A stretch of 22,398 nucleotides of DNA from the IMG/VR virus record IMGVR_UViG_3300027608_000169, positions 1 through 22,398 of that record, one strand, 5' to 3'. How positions within the stretch are numbered: position 1 is the first letter of the stretch; each line of letters begins with the position of its first letter. Below are positions 10,070 through 22,398 of the stretch, piece after piece. The translations under genes were made by a program, and so were the position numbers. The notes beneath the pieces were generated by a model. That model did no database searches and was not told the origin of the DNA. It was given only the letters and a program-made list of their open reading frames with translations. This stretch comes from a virus.

Positions 10070-10492
10070 TTAAATAAATGCCTTAATTGCACGAGGATCG
10101 CCGGTAACTTTGCCAATAATCTCATGATCATTGAAAAAAGTGAACAAACTTTTACCGTTTGCACCTTTTTCATCAGTGAAGTCAATTTCCCAACGATCTC
10201 CGCCCCATTTTGGAACACGGACAAAGTCTCCGAGCTGGCACCATGAACCCTCAGGCCATGATTCCATAGTGTCGCGCTTCTTAAAGGCAAGCGGACCAAT
10301 TGCAATGACTTTTCCAATCATCGTGTTCCATTTCTCTGTCTCCTTTGTCTCTTCTGGTATGTAAATACCTGAAGAAGTCACTTTGTCTTTCACGGCCCTA
10401 AGCTGCACAAGGATCCTAGCGCCATATGGCGCCATTAGTGGGTCTACGGCTGGAAACGCTTCTGCAAGCGTCTGCTCGATATCATGCGACAT
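10070..10492 (-). CDS. groES-like: GroES-like co-chaperonin (Cpn10 family), 140 aa
   Basis: PYGARILVQLRAVKDK (residues 22-37) matches the Cpn10 opening strand. It is followed by VTSSGIYIPEETKETEKW (38-55), the mobile-loop position, where a GI(V/Y)(L/I) motif contacts GroEL. Next come GKVIAIGP (60-67), CQLGDFVRVPKWGGD (85-99), a strand pair, and HEIIGKV (123-129). The protein is longer than the roughly 97-aa bacterial GroES because of an N-terminal extension of about 20 residues and an insertion near 70-85. Phages such as T4 (gp31) and some cyanophages encode co-chaperonins that let host GroEL fold their capsid protein; location upstream of scaffold and capsid genes fits. It overlaps the upstream gene by 11 bp and has a GAGGAAAAACGAG ribosome site. 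Confidence 0.85.
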   Translation of the reverse strand: MSHDIEQTLAEAFPAVDPLMAPYGARILVQLRAVKDKVTSSGIYIPEETKETEKWNTMIGKVIAIGPLAFKKRDTMESWPEGSWCQLGDFVRVPKWGGDRWEIDFTDEKGANGKSLFTFFNDHEIIGKVTGDPRAIKAFI

Positions 10493-13480: not shown

Positions 13481-16400
13481 TTATGCTCTCCGCATCATAA
13501 GTTCATTTTTCATTTGCTCGACGCTGGGAATAGGTTGTACTGTACCGCCTTTTGCAAAGGTCTTACCACGATAACGATAATTGAAGTTTTTCTGCCTCCA
13601 TTGGTCGTCTTCCCAAGGCGTTTTTAATTTAGCGTCAAAAGTGCTTTCTCTTGGGACTTGCGCATCATCATCACGTTCTAGATCCGGTGTATTGTCATTA
13701 AACTCTTTCGAATCTACACGAAATTCAGGGCGCTTAGACATCCATCTTTCTAATTTCATAAGATCAAAAGCGTCTAGTGCTGCATTATTTGGTTCGCCAT
13801 AGTCGCTGGTTGACCCACCATCTTGGTACTTGCGAACACGACCACCATCTTTGCGACCTTCAGGTGGCGGTGTGTTTGGCGGTGGATTGTCACCAAGATA
13901 CTCTTCAATGTTACGTGCTAGCCATTCACGTTGTACATCTGAAAAGTTTTCCCAAAAGCCCATTGCATATGATCGTGCAAGACTTACAATGTTCTCAAGC
14001 TCTCCAGGCATATGCGCATTAGTAAGTGCTTCAAACATGCTTTGAACACGAGTTCTGTCATACTCAGACATATCAGCTGTTAGCGCTTGATCAGACATTG
14101 CATGAATAATTGCCGGTATAGGTCTATACGGTGCAGTGGCTGGTTGTGCAGGAACTGGTGTAGGTAAAGCTTGGCCTCTAATTCCAAATACATTGTCTAC
14201 TTGTGGTGCTTCATTAGCAACAGACTCAAGTTCATCCGCCATATGATCCAATGCTTGACGAAGATCTTCACTCATGCCAGGTCTATTTCGACGCAACTGG
14301 TACACATATTCACTAAGCTCATCACCAGGATTAACATGCTCTGAAATGCTTTGTCTAACCATACTAGCATCATTAGCGACTTCGATGCCATAGTCATTGT
14401 CGATATTTGCTAATGCATTGTCAAGTGCTTCACGAGCATCGCCTGAATCAGCAACAAGATCTCGATCAGGTCGACGACCACGTATCTCGTCAAGCATGTT
14501 CTGTAAACGGAATGCTACATCTTCTGAGAATGATGCTTGTTCTCTTGGTGATAGCATACGAATACGCTCATCGTCAAACAAGCCTTCACGAAGTGCATGA
14601 ATAGAGTCTTCAATACTTCGTATGTCAAAGTTATTGGCATCAGTACGTTCTTGCTCAAACAACTCACGCGCCATACTAATGGCATCTGTATCAGTATATC
14701 GCCGAATTGCTGGCGCATTTGCACCGTGCATACCATCAGGCTCAAAGAAGTCAACAGGCAGTTCTCTAAGCTGCTCAGGCTCTTGTGCAATTAACTGATC
14801 ATGCACTCTTGCTAAATTGCCATATGCATCATCTAAGCGACTACGAAGTACATCGGCTTCAGCACCATTAAGCCCACGATTAGCTACACGATCAGGATCA
14901 CTAAGCACCATAATCTCAGACCTAACGCGTGCTTGCAAATGCTCAATGATCTCGCTTGAACTTAACCCATTACCAAATAAGTTAGTTGACATGCCATCTA
15001 ATAAGTCTATGAACTCACTTAGCGCATCATTTGTATTGCTAAATGCCGAGTCTGGGTCAAGAGGTCTTTGATATGCACTTGTAATTTGACGGTTTCGGTT
15101 GTCAATGTTTTGCTGTACTTCAGCAGGCAAGTTTGCACGTTGTGGTTGTTGCTGTTGTGTTTCTATCCAGCGACCGGTGTTGTCAATCATTTGACGTAGC
15201 TCGGAAACATACTCACCAAGCTCATCAGGCGTGAAATTACGTGTAGCTTCTGTAGGCTGTGACAACACTAAGTTTCTTTGTATATTTACGGCATCTCGAA
15301 TCCCGTTTGCAATATCAATAGGGCTCATGCCATTTTGTACTTGGTTTGCTGCATATCGTTGTAAGTTGTCTGAATATGAGCTTAATGTCTCATTTACAAC
15401 ACGTGAATTACCAGCAAATAATCGAGGTGCCATTGCTTGTCGTAACTGTTCGGCCGGCTGCATTTGAGGCGCAGGCTGTTGAGCTCTTTGTTGTTGACTT
15501 ACTAAGTCATTACGAGCCGATGTAAGTTCATCTGCATACCTTTGAAGAGCAGCTGCCATCTCTTGCGATAACTCAGAAAAATTATTATTACGTCTGTCAA
15601 TTTCATACTCAAGATACTCAAGTGCGCGATTTAATGCAGTCACAGGATCATCTAATAAAGTAGGGAAGTATTGACCTTGCATTGCGGAAAACGTAATACC
15701 TAGTCTTCGTTCAAGCTCTTCTGGCGCATCCAAGTTTGAGTTTTGAATTGCTTCATTAACAACAAAGTCAATATTGTCCACCAGTGCGGCTTGAAGTTGC
15801 CCAATGTCTTCTTGGAATACCGATGATTGTTGTATAACAGCAGGCACATTGCCTTGAACAGCTTGCTTAATGTCTTTAGCTGTCATAAACCGCGGCATTG
15901 AGTTCCAATCCACGGTTTTCATCTGATCAGCAGAAACTTGAGCGGATGATCTTGACTTGTTTAAGCTAGACTTATTTGTAGTGTCATAAATCCCGGCATT
16001 CTTCTCAAGATTTTCTCCGATGCCTGCTATGTCATCAGCTCTTGTGTTCAAATAGTCGCGTATTCCATCAATGTACTTAGGCTCAATAAACCCATTTTGT
16101 GCGCCTGAAGCATACCCAATATTAAATCTAGATTGCCCATTGGCACCAACGCTTGATGACTTCATAAACTGCAATGCCGCAATCGGCATGCCGGTCTCTA
16201 AGTCACGAAACATTGGCAACTGCTCACCACGTTTCAAATTCTCTACGTATGAACTTGTATGGATTGAAGCATTAGGGTTTGGCTTACCTGTCAGAATATC
16301 AACAATAGGCGTCCAACGAGGATCTTTCTTCTTAGTAAAGAAGTTTCTGGTACCTGAACCTCCGCCGCCTTCACCAATACAAATATCTAAAGCTTCGGTT

Positions 16401-18544
16401 GACAATGCTGCTTCTTTATTTGCAACAAATTCCGGCGTGTCTTTCGTAAGCTCAATTACACCGACATTGCCACTAAATTGCTTATTCTCCGGGATTGCAC
16501 TAGCCACTGACTTCATATCATTAAATACATCAGTTCGATATTTCTGAATGTTTTGTGCGCGTTCTTTGGCTATGCCATGTATGTATCGATCAACAGGGTA
16601 TGTAGGCGCTTTCTCTTTCGGTATCCTGTTTGCAAGCACATCATCATAGAACTGTTTAGCTGCATCTATAATGCCTGTTTCTTTCATAGGGCTTGGATAA
16701 GCCATGTACGCCATTTCACCGCGCTTAGCCGATTCTTTAAGCTCAGGATAGAACTGTTGTACGGCATACGGCAACTTTGAGCTTAGCATTGTTGATGCAT
16801 CGATCGGCGCCACTGACGCATCCTCAAGCGTTTCATACGCATCAGCAACAGTTAACCTGTCAAGCTTTTTCTGTACCTCGGTCTTTTGCTTAACAAGCTT
16901 GTTCGCGTTCTTCTTAGCTTCTTTGTATAAGTTGCCAATTTCTCTAGCTTGTGGCTCCATTGCAGGGTCTTGCTCAGCCATCTTTTTGGCAATAAGAAGC
17001 TGGTCATTTAACGATCTTTCAGCATTTGCGGCATTCTTAATGGGAAGATTAAGCGCTTCTACTTCTTGTTGTAGTGCTGAAATATCCGTTGCAAATGAGC
17101 CTTCAACCGGCATACCGGCATTTCGTCTAAAAGACCTTGCATGGCTTCGTTGACTTTGAGCATTGTCAATAACTTCTTCATCAGGTAAGTATGTAAGCCC
17201 TTCTTGCGCGGCCATCTTTACCAATGGGTTGCCTTCGGTACCTAGATTCTTAATAAGGTACTTACCCCACATGTTCTTAAGGCCTTCAACAGCGGCTTCA
17301 TGCCGTTCAGCTAGTTCGCCTGTAGATGCTGCATTAGGCAAGAACTCTTGGCCTTCCGGTGTTTGAATAAACTCGTTATATAGCTCGTTAATCTTTGAAT
17401 TTCGAGCATTGTCATCGTAAAGCGATACTTTAAGCGCCATCAGTGCTTCGCTACCGTTTGGCGCATCAGGGAATAGCTCAAGAGCTTTTGCTTCTTGGAA
17501 ATAGCGAAATGCCGACATCGCCGTATTTGAGTTATCCGACTTCTTAATTTGATCTGTAACGATCTCATCAAGCATCATTGGCGTTGGCTTTGTCACATTC
17601 GGATCAATATTGATCTCTCTAAGCATTTGACCTACAGGGTCTACATCTGGCACATACTCTTTAGCCGTCTCAGGCAATGTAGGCGTGGTAAGCCTTGAGC
17701 CTTGTGGCCGAATTGCATACATGTTGGTTTCAGGTTGCAATGCAGCAGGTAGACCTGGAATCGGTGTCAGCCCTTGCATACGTCTTTGCTCCATGATATC
17801 GCCAAGACGATCAACGCCGCTTTGTATTCTTGCGCCAAGTACCGGTTGGTTAGTTATTGGATCGATACGTTGCAAGCCTGATTGCGCATTCACAAAGTCG
17901 GTCGGTATATCAACAACTTGCTTACCAACACGCGTTGCTTCAGCACCAAGTACACGCACATCGTTCGGCGTAATTAAAGGTCTTGGTGATACACGTGAAG
18001 TGCCAGGTAAGCCTGAGCCTGGCCCTATCATTGGCAATTTAAGTGGCGAAAATACTTGAGTTGCGCCTTCTAATACAGCTTGCCCTTGTGGCGTTTGTGG
18101 TGTAACGGCTTGGCCAATGGCTTCGATACGTTGGTTCATCGGCGCTGGGTTGTACCTTGCTCCAGGTGGTGCAAACTGAGGAAGACTTTCACGAATTGTG
18201 GCAGCTTCTTGCATTGATTGTGGATCACCAAGCACTTTCTCACGATACAACACGCCTGGCATCTTAGACGCATACTGGTATGCGCCAACTACAGGTTGCG
18301 TAATGCCTGCAATGTAAGGCGCTACGCCACTTGCCGCAACTCGAGGTATGTCACCTGCTAAATCAATTCCCTGCTTTCTAAGCATTAAAGGATTGTTGTT
18401 GATAGCTACGTTCTTAATTGTATTAACTGCACTATCTAAAGGACTAGGCTTACCGTTCCTAGCCAACTCATATTGCATTTGGTCGATCGATGGTTGACCA
18501 TCGTCACCGATCGGCACGCCAAACAGGTCATATTGCATTGTCAT
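13481..18544 (-). CDS. Giant polyvalent-type virion-associated protein, 1687 aa
   Basis: The largest gene in the window, sitting unusually between terminase and portal. The N-terminal 100 residues include a mildly hydrophobic stretch (63-93). A proline-rich linker region runs to about 300, then helical, charged segments. Around residue 718, LSTEALDICIGEGGGGSGTR with DPRWTPIVDILTG resembles the (H/D)xCVGxGG block of PcfJ-like / large polyvalent protein-associated domains. About 60-80 residues later YIDGIRDYLNTRADDIAGIG resembles the block that follows it in that family. The remainder to about 1500 is Gln/Asp/Glu/Arg-rich helical repeats. The tail has KDGGRVRKYQDGG (about 1566), AKGGT, and a terminal PSVEQMKNELMMRRA. 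ATGA overlaps the upstream stop; Shine-Dalgarno AAAGGA. Probably a virion-internal or DNA-delivered protein; no catalytic site is identified. Confidence 0.75.
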   Translation of the reverse strand: MTMQYDLFGVPIGDDGQPSIDQMQYELARNGKPSPLDSAVNTIKNVAINNNPLMLRKQGIDLAGDIPRVAASGVAPYIAGITQPVVGAYQYASKMPGVLYREKVLGDPQSMQEAATIRESLPQFAPPGARYNPAPMNQRIEAIGQAVTPQTPQGQAVLEGATQVFSPLKLPMIGPGSGLPGTSRVSPRPLITPNDVRVLGAEATRVGKQVVDIPTDFVNAQSGLQRIDPITNQPVLGARIQSGVDRLGDIMEQRRMQGLTPIPGLPAALQPETNMYAIRPQGSRLTTPTLPETAKEYVPDVDPVGQMLREINIDPNVTKPTPMMLDEIVTDQIKKSDNSNTAMSAFRYFQEAKALELFPDAPNGSEALMALKVSLYDDNARNSKINELYNEFIQTPEGQEFLPNAASTGELAERHEAAVEGLKNMWGKYLIKNLGTEGNPLVKMAAQEGLTYLPDEEVIDNAQSQRSHARSFRRNAGMPVEGSFATDISALQQEVEALNLPIKNAANAERSLNDQLLIAKKMAEQDPAMEPQAREIGNLYKEAKKNANKLVKQKTEVQKKLDRLTVADAYETLEDASVAPIDASTMLSSKLPYAVQQFYPELKESAKRGEMAYMAYPSPMKETGIIDAAKQFYDDVLANRIPKEKAPTYPVDRYIHGIAKERAQNIQKYRTDVFNDMKSVASAIPENKQFSGNVGVIELTKDTPEFVANKEAALSTEALDICIGEGGGGSGTRNFFTKKKDPRWTPIVDILTGKPNPNASIHTSSYVENLKRGEQLPMFRDLETGMPIAALQFMKSSSVGANGQSRFNIGYASGAQNGFIEPKYIDGIRDYLNTRADDIAGIGENLEKNAGIYDTTNKSSLNKSRSSAQVSADQMKTVDWNSMPRFMTAKDIKQAVQGNVPAVIQQSSVFQEDIGQLQAALVDNIDFVVNEAIQNSNLDAPEELERRLGITFSAMQGQYFPTLLDDPVTALNRALEYLEYEIDRRNNNFSELSQEMAAALQRYADELTSARNDLVSQQQRAQQPAPQMQPAEQLRQAMAPRLFAGNSRVVNETLSSYSDNLQRYAANQVQNGMSPIDIANGIRDAVNIQRNLVLSQPTEATRNFTPDELGEYVSELRQMIDNTGRWIETQQQQPQRANLPAEVQQNIDNRNRQITSAYQRPLDPDSAFSNTNDALSEFIDLLDGMSTNLFGNGLSSSEIIEHLQARVRSEIMVLSDPDRVANRGLNGAEADVLRSRLDDAYGNLARVHDQLIAQEPEQLRELPVDFFEPDGMHGANAPAIRRYTDTDAISMARELFEQERTDANNFDIRSIEDSIHALREGLFDDERIRMLSPREQASFSEDVAFRLQNMLDEIRGRRPDRDLVADSGDAREALDNALANIDNDYGIEVANDASMVRQSISEHVNPGDELSEYVYQLRRNRPGMSEDLRQALDHMADELESVANEAPQVDNVFGIRGQALPTPVPAQPATAPYRPIPAIIHAMSDQALTADMSEYDRTRVQSMFEALTNAHMPGELENIVSLARSYAMGFWENFSDVQREWLARNIEEYLGDNPPPNTPPPEGRKDGGRVRKYQDGGSTSDYGEPNNAALDAFDLMKLERWMSKRPEFRVDSKEFNDNTPDLERDDDAQVPRESTFDAKLKTPWEDDQWRQKNFNYRYRGKTFAKGGTVQPIPSVEQMKNELMMRRA

Positions 18545-19581
18545 TCATTGTCCTTTGAAGCATCTTTTTTGTCTTTTTGAGACTGCTTCCATGATTGATC
18601 AAGATATTGTTCAAACTCATGCATGTCAACCAAGTCTTCAAATGATTGCTCTACTTTTGCAGTTTTAGGCTTAAGTCCAAGTTGCTCATTCCTTTGTTTA
18701 ACGTATGCATTTTCAGGTAAAGCATTTGAGAAATGATCTGCTATATTCTCATATATTTCGCCGTTGGGGTAGTCTTCTTGATGTAAATTACTTAATACGT
18801 CCGCTAGTTCGTGCGGCTTTAATTTACGCATGTTGTTTTGCATTCGTATAAATAACTCATGCGATGCGTCGTCTGAAAGTTCAGGGCTATTTTTGCGAAG
18901 TTTGCCTTGTTTTGTTAAATTTGCCAACGTGTCAAATTCTTGTACAGTTTCTTCAGGCAGTTGGTTTTTTAAATAGTCTCTAGAAATAATCCATAAGCCT
19001 TGTGCAACCGCGCCAGGCTCTTGTTCATAAGCGTTCATTGCCATGCCTTGCACGTAATTCCGCAAATGCATATCAATAACATCGTTTGGAATAAACCCAG
19101 GCTGCATAATGTTAGCAGCTTGTGCTAATGGCGATACTATTTCAGGCACAACATCAGCAACTTTAGGCATAGGTAGCATTTGGTTCAATGCAACTTGGCC
19201 TGTCTTCTTTAGCACTTCACGTCTCGATATCGGCGTATTCAGTGCTTTGTTCGCCATTTGACCTAATGGCGCAAGAGGCGTTGTTGCAGGTGTCGGTTGA
19301 GCAGGTGCTTGTGGTACAGACACTGCGCTTGGCACAGGCACATCGGACGATCTCACGGCAGGTAAGTTGTCAGGCAATGGCGCTTGCGGCTTTAAACCAA
19401 GTATAGAACGTCGTTGTATGTCGATCGGTGGTGCAACTGGCTTTGGCTTACCTTTGCCAAACAACCCAACTTGTTGCATGTAAGGGCTCATGCCTAATTG
19501 ACTTGCACCATCGTCATAGACATTCGGGTCTTGACGCATAAGCATCTCGGCCCGCATTTGTGCTAAGTCATCAAACGGCAT
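18541..19581 (-). CDS. Unknown protein of the terminase-portal interval, 346 aa
   Basis: No recognised family. Residues 1-20 (DDLAQMRAEMLMRQD) share a short motif with both ends of the 1687-aa protein. Residues 45-110 are proline/alanine-rich and probably disordered. PISRREVLKKTGQVALNQML (117-136) contains a twin-arginine-like SRRxVLK followed by moderately apolar residues, although it is internal. The rest is helical and acidic (NDVIDMHLRNYVQGMAMNAY, DYLKNQLPEETVQEFDTL, EDLVDMHEFEQYLDQSWKQ), ending in a Lys/Asp/Glu tail. It overlaps the terminase gene by 11 bp and its stop overlaps the 1687-aa start as ATGA, so the two are probably made together and may act together. Shine-Dalgarno AAGAGGGTG. 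Confidence 0.7.
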   Translation of the reverse strand: MPFDDLAQMRAEMLMRQDPNVYDDGASQLGMSPYMQQVGLFGKGKPKPVAPPIDIQRRSILGLKPQAPLPDNLPAVRSSDVPVPSAVSVPQAPAQPTPATTPLAPLGQMANKALNTPISRREVLKKTGQVALNQMLPMPKVADVVPEIVSPLAQAANIMQPGFIPNDVIDMHLRNYVQGMAMNAYEQEPGAVAQGLWIISRDYLKNQLPEETVQEFDTLANLTKQGKLRKNSPELSDDASHELFIRMQNNMRKLKPHELADVLSNLHQEDYPNGEIYENIADHFSNALPENAYVKQRNEQLGLKPKTAKVEQSFEDLVDMHEFEQYLDQSWKQSQKDKKDASKDNE

Positions 19582-20998
19582 ATGGGTTCACCCTCTTAGG
19601 TCGATCCTCGTCGTACGAGTCGTTCGCATCATACACTGGATCGATACTGATGAGCCCAATGTCACGCATTATGCGCAAAGCTTGTGTTGTCGAGTCAACA
19701 AGGTCGTCATGCCGCACTTCAGGGAACGAACACAACTGTGTGATTAGCGGTTCAGCCCAGTCTCTTGCCATGCCTGGGTTTGTCATTGACTCAGGCATGT
19801 AGATTCGTCCACGTTGAATGATGGGAGACACAATGTTTAGTCGCATCATCTTGTCAGCATTGCCAGGGTTGTAGCTTCGTACTGGCAAGCCAGCTCTTTG
19901 TAAGTCCTGCAGTAAGCTGATGCCTGCCGACTTGTCCTCGATCACGATCATGTCCACCTTCTTGCCATGGCCCCACTCGTTCTCATCGCCATAGATCGCA
20001 TCGGCTTCCTCGACCACTTTAGGTCGTAGGTCTGGGTACTGCATGTACTCTTCCCAGCAGTCGATCAGCATCACCGACATTGGCTTGTCGTCACTTGGCT
20101 TGAACACACCCCACACAGTGCACGCGGTCGGATCGTTCTTGGTCTTGTCGGACGTGGCACAGTCATACGATTGCACAACGTACTGAAAGCGTGGCAATGG
20201 CTTGTCGTTCGGCCAGAGCTTGAACCAAGCACGTTTGATGATGCCTGACTCTTCAGGGTCGATGATCTCGGCATAGATTTCCTGACGTCCTAGCTTCGTA
20301 CCCTCGTACTGCATGATCTGGTTTTGGAAACTAGGCGCCAAGTTCTTGATGTTGTCATACGTCGATGCCGATGTATAGATCACGTCCTCACCATCTCGGT
20401 TAGTCAGGTCGATAATCAACGGCTTTGGCTTCGGTGTCGTGGTACAGATCAGTCGTGGCTGTGAACCGAGACGCATGCCGAACTGAATCATGTTCCAAGC
20501 ATCGTCAAGGTAATCCCATGCAGCCAGCTCGTCAAGCCAGCCACCATGAAACTGTGGACCACGAAAGCGGTCAGGCTCTGATGCAGCAATGCCTTTGAGG
20601 ATTGAGCCGTTCTTTAGCGTGATTTCGTGCTGGCTCTTGTTGTAGGCTTCTACGATCTCTGGCGGTATGACATTAATCAGCCCTGAATCACCTTCAAAGC
20701 ACACATCACGTACATCACCGGAAGTTGGCGCACTGACTAGCCACCGTGTCTTTGGCTTAGTCCATGCTTCCCACCACGCCCACTCAGCAGCACAGCGTGT
20801 CTTGCCAGCACCACGACCAGCAAGCAAGAGCCAAATGTTCCACCAATCGCCCTTTGGCGTGATCTGATGGTCATTTGCTTTTTGTAGCCATTTCAGCCGT
20901 GCTTTGATGGCCGCTTGCCATTCCTTCGATGCATGGTTTAAGTTCGGCCCAGCTTTAATGCGCTCGGCAAACTGTTCAGCTATCGTCTGACTTATCAC
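19571..20998 (-). CDS. terL: Terminase large subunit (DNA-packaging ATPase/nuclease)
   Basis: Packages phage DNA into the prohead through the portal. ATPase: Walker A GRGAGKT (61-67) within WLLLAGRGAGKTRCAAEWAW, Walker B GGWLDE (152-157), coupling motif CTTTPKP (185-191). RNase H-like nuclease: SYDCATS with D279, VIEDKSAG with E354/D355, and RHDDLVDS with D431/D432. All expected acidic residues are present, and 475 aa is normal. The start is GTG at 20998-20996: there is no in-frame ATG upstream before a stop, and the frame overlaps terS by 23 bp with a modest CAAGGCAAG ribosome site. The ATPase resembles the Terminase_6-type group. Whether packaging uses cos or headful cutting cannot be told from this sequence. 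Confidence 0.95.
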   Translation of the reverse strand: MISQTIAEQFAERIKAGPNLNHASKEWQAAIKARLKWLQKANDHQITPKGDWWNIWLLLAGRGAGKTRCAAEWAWWEAWTKPKTRWLVSAPTSGDVRDVCFEGDSGLINVIPPEIVEAYNKSQHEITLKNGSILKGIAASEPDRFRGPQFHGGWLDELAAWDYLDDAWNMIQFGMRLGSQPRLICTTTPKPKPLIIDLTNRDGEDVIYTSASTYDNIKNLAPSFQNQIMQYEGTKLGRQEIYAEIIDPEESGIIKRAWFKLWPNDKPLPRFQYVVQSYDCATSDKTKNDPTACTVWGVFKPSDDKPMSVMLIDCWEEYMQYPDLRPKVVEEADAIYGDENEWGHGKKVDMIVIEDKSAGISLLQDLQRAGLPVRSYNPGNADKMMRLNIVSPIIQRGRIYMPESMTNPGMARDWAEPLITQLCSFPEVRHDDLVDSTTQALRIMRDIGLISIDPVYDANDSYDEDRPKRVNPYAV

Positions 20999-21431
20999 CG
21001 GCTTGCCTTGTTGACAACAAGTCGTTCATAAGCTCTTGTGCAAAGTCATGAACTACATCGACCTGAATTGCTCCGTCGTTTTTACCAGTAACTTCAACTT
21101 TAGAATTTTCGCGGTACTTCTGTGGGAATCTAGCCGCCAGGGACCTAGACCATATGGACGTGTTTAGTTTGTCCCCCTGAGGCCGTTCTACCATGTACTG
21201 GATACCAATCTTTTCAAAGAAGATTAATTCCTGCATCTTTGCAGTTTCTAAGGCCGCCAAGAAATCTGGATTTGCTTCCATCCAATTTATGAGTGTGTTC
21301 CATGACACATCAAGCTCACCGGCGATCATCTCGCGGCTATAGCCTTGCTTGCCCCATTCGACCACTTGATCACAATATGCTGGATCGTATTTGGTGGGTT
21401 GGCCCCGACCTCGTTTTGGCTTATCAGTCAT
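20976..21431 (-). CDS. terS: Terminase small subunit (DNA recognition)
   Basis: At 151 aa, with PKRGRGQPTKYDPAYCDQVV at the N-terminus and a helix-turn-helix at about residues 30-51 (YSREMIAGELDVSWNTLINW), followed by ANPDFLAALETAKMQELIFF. This is the usual layout of small terminases that bind the packaging site and hand DNA to TerL. It directly precedes and overlaps terL by 23 bp. The ATG has no Shine-Dalgarno (upstream CAATCCCGCAC), while the TGA of a 38-codon upstream frame overlaps it as ATGA. Only about 26 bases separate it from the inverted-repeat structure at 21458-21557. Confidence 0.88.
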   Translation of the reverse strand: MTDKPKRGRGQPTKYDPAYCDQVVEWGKQGYSREMIAGELDVSWNTLINWMEANPDFLAALETAKMQELIFFEKIGIQYMVERPQGDKLNTSIWSRSLAARFPQKYRENSKVEVTGKNDGAIQVDVVHDFAQELMNDLLSTRQAGDKSDDS

Positions 21432-21457
21432 GTGCGGGATTGTATAACAAAAGAGGT

Positions 21458-21563: not shown

Positions 21564-21592
21564 ATTGTACAAAACCGACGAAAAACCGGCAA
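21564..21592 (-). promoter_or_regulatory. Candidate second promoter, start at edge of inverted repeat
   Basis: On the minus strand TTGCCG (21592-21587; 4 of 6), 17-bp spacer and TACAAT (21569-21564; 5 of 6). The predicted start near 21557 coincides with the outer base of the 12-bp inverted repeat, so the transcript would begin with the left strand of that stem. Two GATACA boxes lie directly upstream of the -35. Moderate pattern support only. Confidence 0.4.
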
Positions 21593-21680
21593 GATACAAA
21601 ATTGGATACAAAGTTCTGCAGACTCTTTTATACGATACATATATATATATATAGATTCTAAATAAGAAGTATGTATCTTT

Positions 21681-21715
21681 GTATCTGGTATTAGCAGATG
21701 TAACAGTGCTGTCAA
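21681..21715 (-). promoter_or_regulatory. Candidate sigma70 promoter upstream of packaging genes
   Basis: On the minus strand a perfect -35 TTGACA (21715-21710), 16-bp spacer and TAATAC (21693-21688) preceded by TGC, an extended -10 arrangement. The -10 hexamer itself is poor (3 of 6). The expected start, near 21681, falls inside two adjacent TGTATC boxes (21680-21685 and 21672-21677), where a DNA-binding protein could control it. Not tested; pattern only. Confidence 0.45.
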
Positions 21716-21738
21716 AAACATGGATACAAAACCTTTCG

Positions 21739-21771
21739 AAAAAATTGTATCTGGATACAGGATCCTGTATC
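21739..21771 (-). terminator. Palindrome and possible terminator after primase-like gene
   Basis: GATACAGGATCCTGTATC (21754-21771) is a perfect 18-bp palindrome whose outer base is the last base of the gene's TAG stop. An overlapping inverted repeat, TGTATC-CA-GATACA on the minus strand (21759-21746), is followed by ATTTTTT (21745-21739). The second could be a weak intrinsic terminator. The two structures are mutually exclusive. Since both are built from the GATACA box, a protein-binding role is equally possible. Confidence 0.5.
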
Positions 21772-22398
21772 TAGCTCACACTTATATGCTTGTTGACCAT
21801 GACTTTCGTCGAAGATACAATTTCTACGAGCTTTAGCTCTTTCTTTTTGTATCTACCTTCTTTGGTCGTATAGACATGGAATCGGGTCGTGACACCATCT
21901 ATTCGAGTAGTTCCGTTCATGTCAACTTCACCAAGCTTCATGAACGCATACACCAAAGCTTTGGCTTTTACATTCTTAAGACCGGTCAATGTCTCGGCAA
22001 GTGTCTCGATCTGAGACGGTCTGAATGCTGCTACACCACCAAGCTCTTCATTAATTAGAGCATATAGCTCATCGGCAAAGTCCTCAATGCTGGTTTGGCT
22101 CATCTTTACGGCTTCATCTTTGTGTGTAGATGTTGGTGCTGGTGCCGTAGCACTGTAGTCACCAAGATCCCGGCACATATACCAGTTTAATACTTTAGAA
22201 TACCCCATCTCAAACTTAGTCCATGCTTCCAACTGTCTAAAACGCATGGCACCTTCTTCACGAGTTAGTGTCTTTGGCATGTAGACGGCATCCCTACGGC
22301 TGTTCTTGCTCATCTTGGTCACATACGCAGCATTGGTGGTCATGATCAGGTTGATGTAGTTCCTAGTCGTATACTTCAGGCCGTACTTCTTATCAATG
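21771..22398 (-). CDS. Primase/helicase-like replication protein, C-terminal part (5' end off window)
   Basis: An ATG exists at 22343, but the frame stays open upstream to the window edge (IDKKYGLKYTTRNYINLI before that Met), so 208 residues of a longer protein are seen. The segment RNYINLIMTTNAAYVTKMSK then NSRRDAVYMP matches the sensor-like 'TSN ... RR' region of superfamily 3-type phage primase-helicases (DUF5906-like). Downstream, YSKVLNWYMCRDLGDYSATA with PAPTSTHKDEAVKMSQ resembles that family's L..W...RDL..YxPxxxAPxT block. Walker motifs would lie upstream, outside the window. The C-terminal part (ELYALINEELGGVAAFRPSQ, TRFHVYTTKEGRYKKKELK) looks like a small winged-helix tail. Stop TAG abuts an 18-bp palindrome. 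Family assignment is by motif order. Confidence 0.65.
   Translation of the reverse strand, partial: IDKKYGLKYTTRNYINLIMTTNAAYVTKMSKNSRRDAVYMPKTLTREEGAMRFRQLEAWTKFEMGYSKVLNWYMCRDLGDYSATAPAPTSTHKDEAVKMSQTSIEDFADELYALINEELGGVAAFRPSQIETLAETLTGLKNVKAKALVYAFMKLGEVDMNGTTRIDGVTTRFHVYTTKEGRYKKKELKLVEIVSSTKVMVNKHISVS

Follow-up and report, generated by a model that had tools for sequence, protein, structure and literature searches.

A dense array of short repeated boxes, lying between the primase-helicase gene and the terminase genes of a freshwater phage, is with a probability of about 0.8 the replication origin of that phage. It resembles the iteron-type origins of P4 alpha and SaPI Rep, and the phage's own primase-helicase is predicted to bind it and to initiate replication there. 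The array was found in a virus fragment of 22,398 nucleotides (22.4 kb), which is referred to in its entirety as the window. Sequence and phylogeny support this reading through the array itself, its conserved layout, its weak core, a box word that varies in step with the C-terminus of the primase-helicase, and the predicted order of the protein domains. A preliminary description of the window had proposed either an iteron origin or a multi-site operator. The iteron origin is now favoured and the operator less supported, since the contigs checked have a single array and its word tracks the primase. Beyond that single-sequence view, lineages differ in the word but agree in the layout, and the neighbouring primase-helicase is the likely reader.

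The box array and its AT-rich core

The minus strand of the window carries the 3' end of the primase-helicase gene, followed by terS, terL, the portal gene and structural genes (Table 1). As described at the outset, the array joins a primase/helicase-like gene to the packaging genes: a primase-like C-terminus is encoded on one flank, terS and terL on the other. The whole window contains 22 copies of GATACA, against 10.2 expected from shuffles, and half of them fall within the array. The claim that 11 copies in 261 bp, in both orientations, exceed chance was upheld by simulation, where no 6-mer passed seven copies in 200 first-order Markov windows, and the earlier figure of 0.13 expected copies is about right. 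The most copies of any 6-mer per 261 bp is 11 at the array versus 5 in the remaining window. A count beyond the array had been proposed as a check, and equal density there would have refuted the proposal; neither the rest of the window nor the larger related contigs showed a comparable density of boxes.

Table 1. Positions of the array, its boxes and the neighbouring genes in the window
Feature	Position	Strand	Remarks
Box array	21593-21853	both orientations	11 GATACA boxes (counted); proposed initiator-binding iterons
AT core	21624-21683		lowest stability of any 60-bp stretch in the window; proposed unwinding element; includes AT run 21639-21653
Box	21593-21598	+	right cluster, facing core
Box	21605-21610	+	right cluster, facing core
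Box	21634-21639	+	AT core edge
Box	21672-21677	-	tandem pair left of core (terS orientation), facing core
Box	21680-21685	-	tandem pair left of core (terS orientation), facing core
Box	21723-21728	+	outer cluster
Box	21746-21751	-	outer cluster
Box	21754-21759	+	outer cluster; one half of 18-bp palindrome
Box	21766-21771	-	outer cluster; other half of 18-bp palindrome
Box	21814-21819	+	within primase-helicase coding sequence, 3' end
Box	21848-21853	-	within primase-helicase coding sequence, 3' end
CGTATAAAAGAGTCTGCAG	21616-21634	-	element between core and right cluster; similar sequences in relatives
TACAAT	21439-21444	-	-10-like hexamer directly upstream of terS, outside array; by eye
Primase-helicase gene, 3' part	21771-22397	-	full-length copy (704 aa) in near-identical L007:1989-4103
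terS	20976-21431	-	terminase small subunit
terL	19571-20998	-	terminase large subunit

The 15-bp AT run noted at first is confirmed. The perfect 18-bp palindrome GATACAGGATCCTGTATC (21754-21771) is real, but it consists of two boxes face to face and was rejected as an independent element because its centre is altered in the relatives L008 and L086. The minus strand likewise contains the TTGACA promoter candidate, which other lineages have not retained. Promoter-like sites were detected by a promoter scan in the array and nearby. The TACAAT copy before terS is absent from the list of that scan, which contains another TACAAT ending at 21564; a sequence similar to the copy before terS was seen in relatives. 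Between the core and the right cluster, an element like CGTATA(A/T)A(A/G)AGTCT recurs in other lineages.

The array region has an AT content of 68%. At 79 of 83 loci, the 60 bp of lowest stability fall within the intergenic DNA of the array, and the genome-wide stability minimum over 60 bp also falls at the array in three large contigs: G002 (54 kb, with 127-bp terminal repeats), G003 (75 kb) and G009 (44 kb). An easily melted AT-rich segment between repeats, as in iteron origins served by an initiator helicase, is therefore part of the locus. A minimum of GC skew had also been suggested as a check on the origin. Several contigs do show minima no more than a few kb from the array, but these follow gene-strand switches. 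As gene orientation confounds the measure, it was judged uninformative and dropped.

Other features of the window were noted. A phage-encoded gene for a Cpn10 (GroES-like) co-chaperonin lies between the portal and capsid genes (10070-10492, minus strand); the complete phage MW202545 has one too. A protein of 1687 aa (13481-18544, minus strand), encoded between the terL-side genes and the portal, has no confident family, and Pfam gave only a weak DivIVA match below the cut-off. No RNA families were found at the locus, and its DNA, searched directly against phage records, had no match.

Conserved layout and changing box words in related phages

A search with TerL led to 80 viral loci, and primase searches led to many more. 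The order primase-helicase, intergenic DNA, terS and terL is common to most relatives, and the box arrays are conserved at the same locus, a comparison that the preliminary description had called for. The 84 distinct arrays are distributed over five words: GTAACA (33), GTTACA (29), ATTACA (13), GATACA (6) and GTATCA (3). Read 5' to 3', all of them are roughly variants of R-W-W-W-C-A followed by A/T-rich bases. A single array has nearly always one box class, so that the boxes change together. The orientation pattern is common to the classes: an outer cluster is followed by tandem boxes directed toward an AT-rich core and then by tandem boxes facing back. The core between converging boxes was detected automatically in 68 of 82 arrays, the remainder being mostly mis-placed cores. 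Multiple short repeats at a single place of the genome are a feature of iteron origins with an initiator helicase, and the five large contigs checked contain one such box cluster per genome; a second match in G003 is a tandem repeat and not a box array.

Matches to the IHF consensus are present in 30 of 84 arrays, against about 4 expected, and usually lie between the left box clusters. An IHF site was rejected as a general element of the array, given this partial occurrence and the lack of a match at the usual place in the GATACA class, to which the window belongs. Neither a DUF5906 protein nor an array was found in MW202545, which has a related terL; the array scan covered the terminase half of that genome. 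Both were likewise absent from G005 and G007, but these partial contigs are fragments.

Among cultured phages there are only remote relatives of the primase-helicase, with about 21-29% identity. For 11 such DUF5906 primases, the first 380 bp after the primase gene were checked for an array. The Pseudomonas phages Turba (L332), vB_PstS-pAN (L334) and PG1 (L329) have CAACAC-like arrays directly downstream with the same converging layout (CAACAC-type counts of 12, 11 and related), and Achromobacter phage JWT (L330) has a weaker, TAGCAG-like array. The other seven gave no significant array. No published description of such an array in these phages was found in the open-licence literature. Turba, vB_PstS-pAN and PG1 offer cultured models for the array layout behind remote primases.

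A candidate reader of the boxes

The full primase-helicase (704 aa, in L007) comprises DUF3854 and DUF5906. An SF3-type helicase domain is indicated by DUF5906 and by fold matches to NrS-1, SaPI5 and D5/E5-type helicases. The AlphaFold model of the whole protein (mean pLDDT 72.9) matches the helicase region of NrS-1 with an E value of 1.8e-12 and, more weakly, the SaPI5 primase-helicase, PriRep1 with dsDNA, and the catalytic cores of DnaG. A TOPRIM-type primase half is suggested by DUF3854 and by the DnaG fold matches, which have E values of about 1e-5 and come from a moderate model. Residues 600-702 are predicted to form a winged-helix-like domain at the C-terminus. The last 130 residues, modelled separately (pLDDT 82.5), give the order helix, strand, helix, helix, strand, strand, helix, from which a winged helix is predicted. 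Solved structures match this model only weakly in a winged-helix-like manner (best Foldseek E 0.067, best Z 6.6), and the fold call therefore rests on model topology. P4 alpha was not among the sequence or fold matches to the C-terminal domain. No relatives of the primase were found in bacterial and archaeal genomes, and no host is therefore deduced from that search. Directly upstream of the primase gene, a protein of about 327 aa is conserved (L007:921-1907, L071:2197-3180, L090:3891-4874, L092:1400-2380), which we take to be DUF932-like.

The likely reader of the boxes is this predicted winged-helix C-terminus, with binding predicted from sequence comparison. A natural pair of loci is informative here. 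L126 has GTAACA boxes and L129 has GTTACA boxes; their TerS proteins are identical (143/143) and the N-terminal parts of their primases nearly so (573/579). The primase C-termini are identical at 114 of 125 positions, and the 11 differences centre on the predicted wing. In the intergenic DNA, 16 of 49 box sites are changed, compared with 30 of 208 non-box sites. The opposite case is that of L007 and L008, whose boxes are the same although their TerS proteins are only 77% alike.

Of all 1,313 columns aligned for primase, TerS and TerL, the one that predicts box class best, by a wide margin, is residue 659 of the primase. Its normalised mutual information with the class is 0.665, followed by 0.383 for the next column; the best TerS and TerL columns reach 0.263 and 0.239. 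Leucine occurs at this residue with GTAACA and GTATCA, V, M, I or A with GTTACA, P, S or A with ATTACA, and T with GATACA. With the C-terminus left out of the tree, residue 659 and the class switch jointly in each of 7 independent pairs (p 0.016). Residue 661 is K or R if the box starts with G and N, S or T if it starts with A, a pattern seen in two independent pairs only. Codon 659 is at least 41 nt away from any box; overlap is therefore no explanation for the co-variation of residue and word. On whole trees, box-class changes number 8 on the primase C-terminus versus 10 on TerS, a slight edge only, and such counts (8, 9 and 10) were abandoned as a test of the reader, being too close to decide.

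In the window, as in most relatives, the array directly follows the primase-helicase gene; the exceptions are L090, G018 and G019. In L090 the array is about 2-4 kb from the primase gene, and its GATACA word is shared with the closest primase relatives (84% identity), whose TerS is only 57% identical to that of L090. A similar distance of about 2-4 kb applies to G018 and G019, both of which carry short terminal repeats. In both of these, as well as in G025 and G026, the word is the one forecast from residues 659 and 661 before the arrays were located. The array of G022 has mixed words, and no array was found in G023 and G024.

As a rule stated beforehand and applied out of sample, the residue forecast failed overall: it was right for 3 of 3 new C-termini with at least 50% identity but for only 1 of 8 in a subfamily whose C-terminus has diverged to about 20% identity and whose boxes are ATTACA. 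A rule for all C-termini was rejected, as it does not transfer to this subfamily, in which residue 659 is not reliably alignable; its validity is confined to the family that can be aligned. The members of the subfamily (L218, L219, L222, L265, L266, L268, L271 and L279) have an ATTACA array downstream despite the low identity of their C-termini. A recognition word that switched as a unit at least eight or nine times, largely set by one or two wing residues (659, 661), in a large and apparently undescribed group of freshwater phages, is a tentative proposal to which we give somewhat less than even odds.

Proposed origin function, rival readings and known systems

From these data we infer a sequence of binding, ring assembly, melting, priming and initiation. 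The TOPRIM-type primase/SF3 helicase would bind boxes of roughly 8 bp through its C-terminal winged-helix domain, and the beta-hairpin wing may contribute to box specificity. Because tandem sets face the AT core from both sides, two helicase rings would come to lie head to head; they could then melt the core and unwind outward, and the primase half would make primers during unwinding.

Several observations run counter to the origin reading. The array has kept its place near terS even in genomes whose primase gene lies elsewhere, and most of the remote primases of cultured phages lack a significant array downstream. The failed out-of-sample forecast, the mixed or missing arrays of G022, G023 and G024, the close whole-tree counts, the weak structural matches of the C-terminal model and the confounded GC skew also count against it. 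Where the gene moved but the array stayed, a link of the array to late genes or packaging is possible. The constant position near terS is also why an operator is kept as a rival, in which a phage regulator or the primase itself would act on the boxes and control the terS/late promoter or a promoter within the array. The promoter-like sites in and near the array fit such a role. However, one would expect a regulator to act at several promoters, and the contigs checked have one cluster per genome; the genome's weakest DNA between converging tandem boxes would be unusual for an operator; the box class tracks a residue of the primase-helicase; the TACAAT directly before terS falls outside the boxes; and two boxes lie within coding sequence. 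An operator in place of an origin is thus considered unlikely, and a double role as origin and operator is possible.

The cosB site of lambda lies just upstream of the small-terminase gene. The position of the array directly upstream of terS in nearly all relatives, together with the IHF-consensus matches in some arrays, would suit a packaging site (cos or pac) bound by the small terminase. Such a site is hard to reconcile with the different boxes beside identical TerS proteins in L126 and L129 and with the TerS columns, none of which tracks the class well, so that the co-variation expected between TerS and its site was not found. The shared boxes of L007 and L008, the GATACA word of L090 despite its distant TerS, and the related large terminase of MW202545, which comes without an array, also speak against packaging, and this reading is regarded as very improbable. 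The AT-rich composition of the region might have produced low-complexity repeats by chance and without function, but the copy number is far beyond simulation, and the position and orientation conserved in 84 arrays, with coordinated word switches, already refute this view, which retains a negligible probability.

The proposed origin shares features with several known systems. The SaPI5 primase-helicase, from the SaPI origins and their Rep helicase, is among the fold matches found here. SaPI5 has an archaeo-eukaryotic primase (PMC7581432), whereas the primase half here resembles TOPRIM/DnaG; the host, the box sequence and the placement beside terminase genes differ as well. Phage P4, with its alpha protein and origin, is a satellite, whereas the relatives here are full phages, and the likeness to P4 was judged without comparison of box sequences. 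In SCCmec, the initiator helicase Cch2 uses its C-terminal domain to bind direct repeats that lie downstream of its own gene (PMC7581432). The proposal here is alike in having an initiator helicase with a C-terminal domain reading repeats downstream of the gene, but SCCmec has only three 5-nt iterons and a separate primase-polymerase. ORF904 of pRN1 combines a primase, an SF3 helicase and a C-terminal winged helix, with the origin downstream of the gene (PMC4234260). This is the domain order and downstream origin proposed here, but the pRN1 origin is a large stem-loop without iterons and its primase is archaeo-eukaryotic. For geminivirus Rep and its iterons, closely related viruses are reported to differ in iteron sequence but to agree in iteron position and pattern (PMC12548392). 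The arrays described here behave alike, although the rolling-circle Rep of plant ssDNA viruses belongs to an unrelated system.

A likely origin and a likely initiator can now be named for a large group of freshwater phages that are uncultured. Natural pairs of origin and initiator are available by the dozen, and one near-identical pair with different boxes opens the word switch to direct study. If the word switching is true, it would represent a readable natural code of protein-DNA specificity for replication initiation, which keeps the origins of related phages apart.
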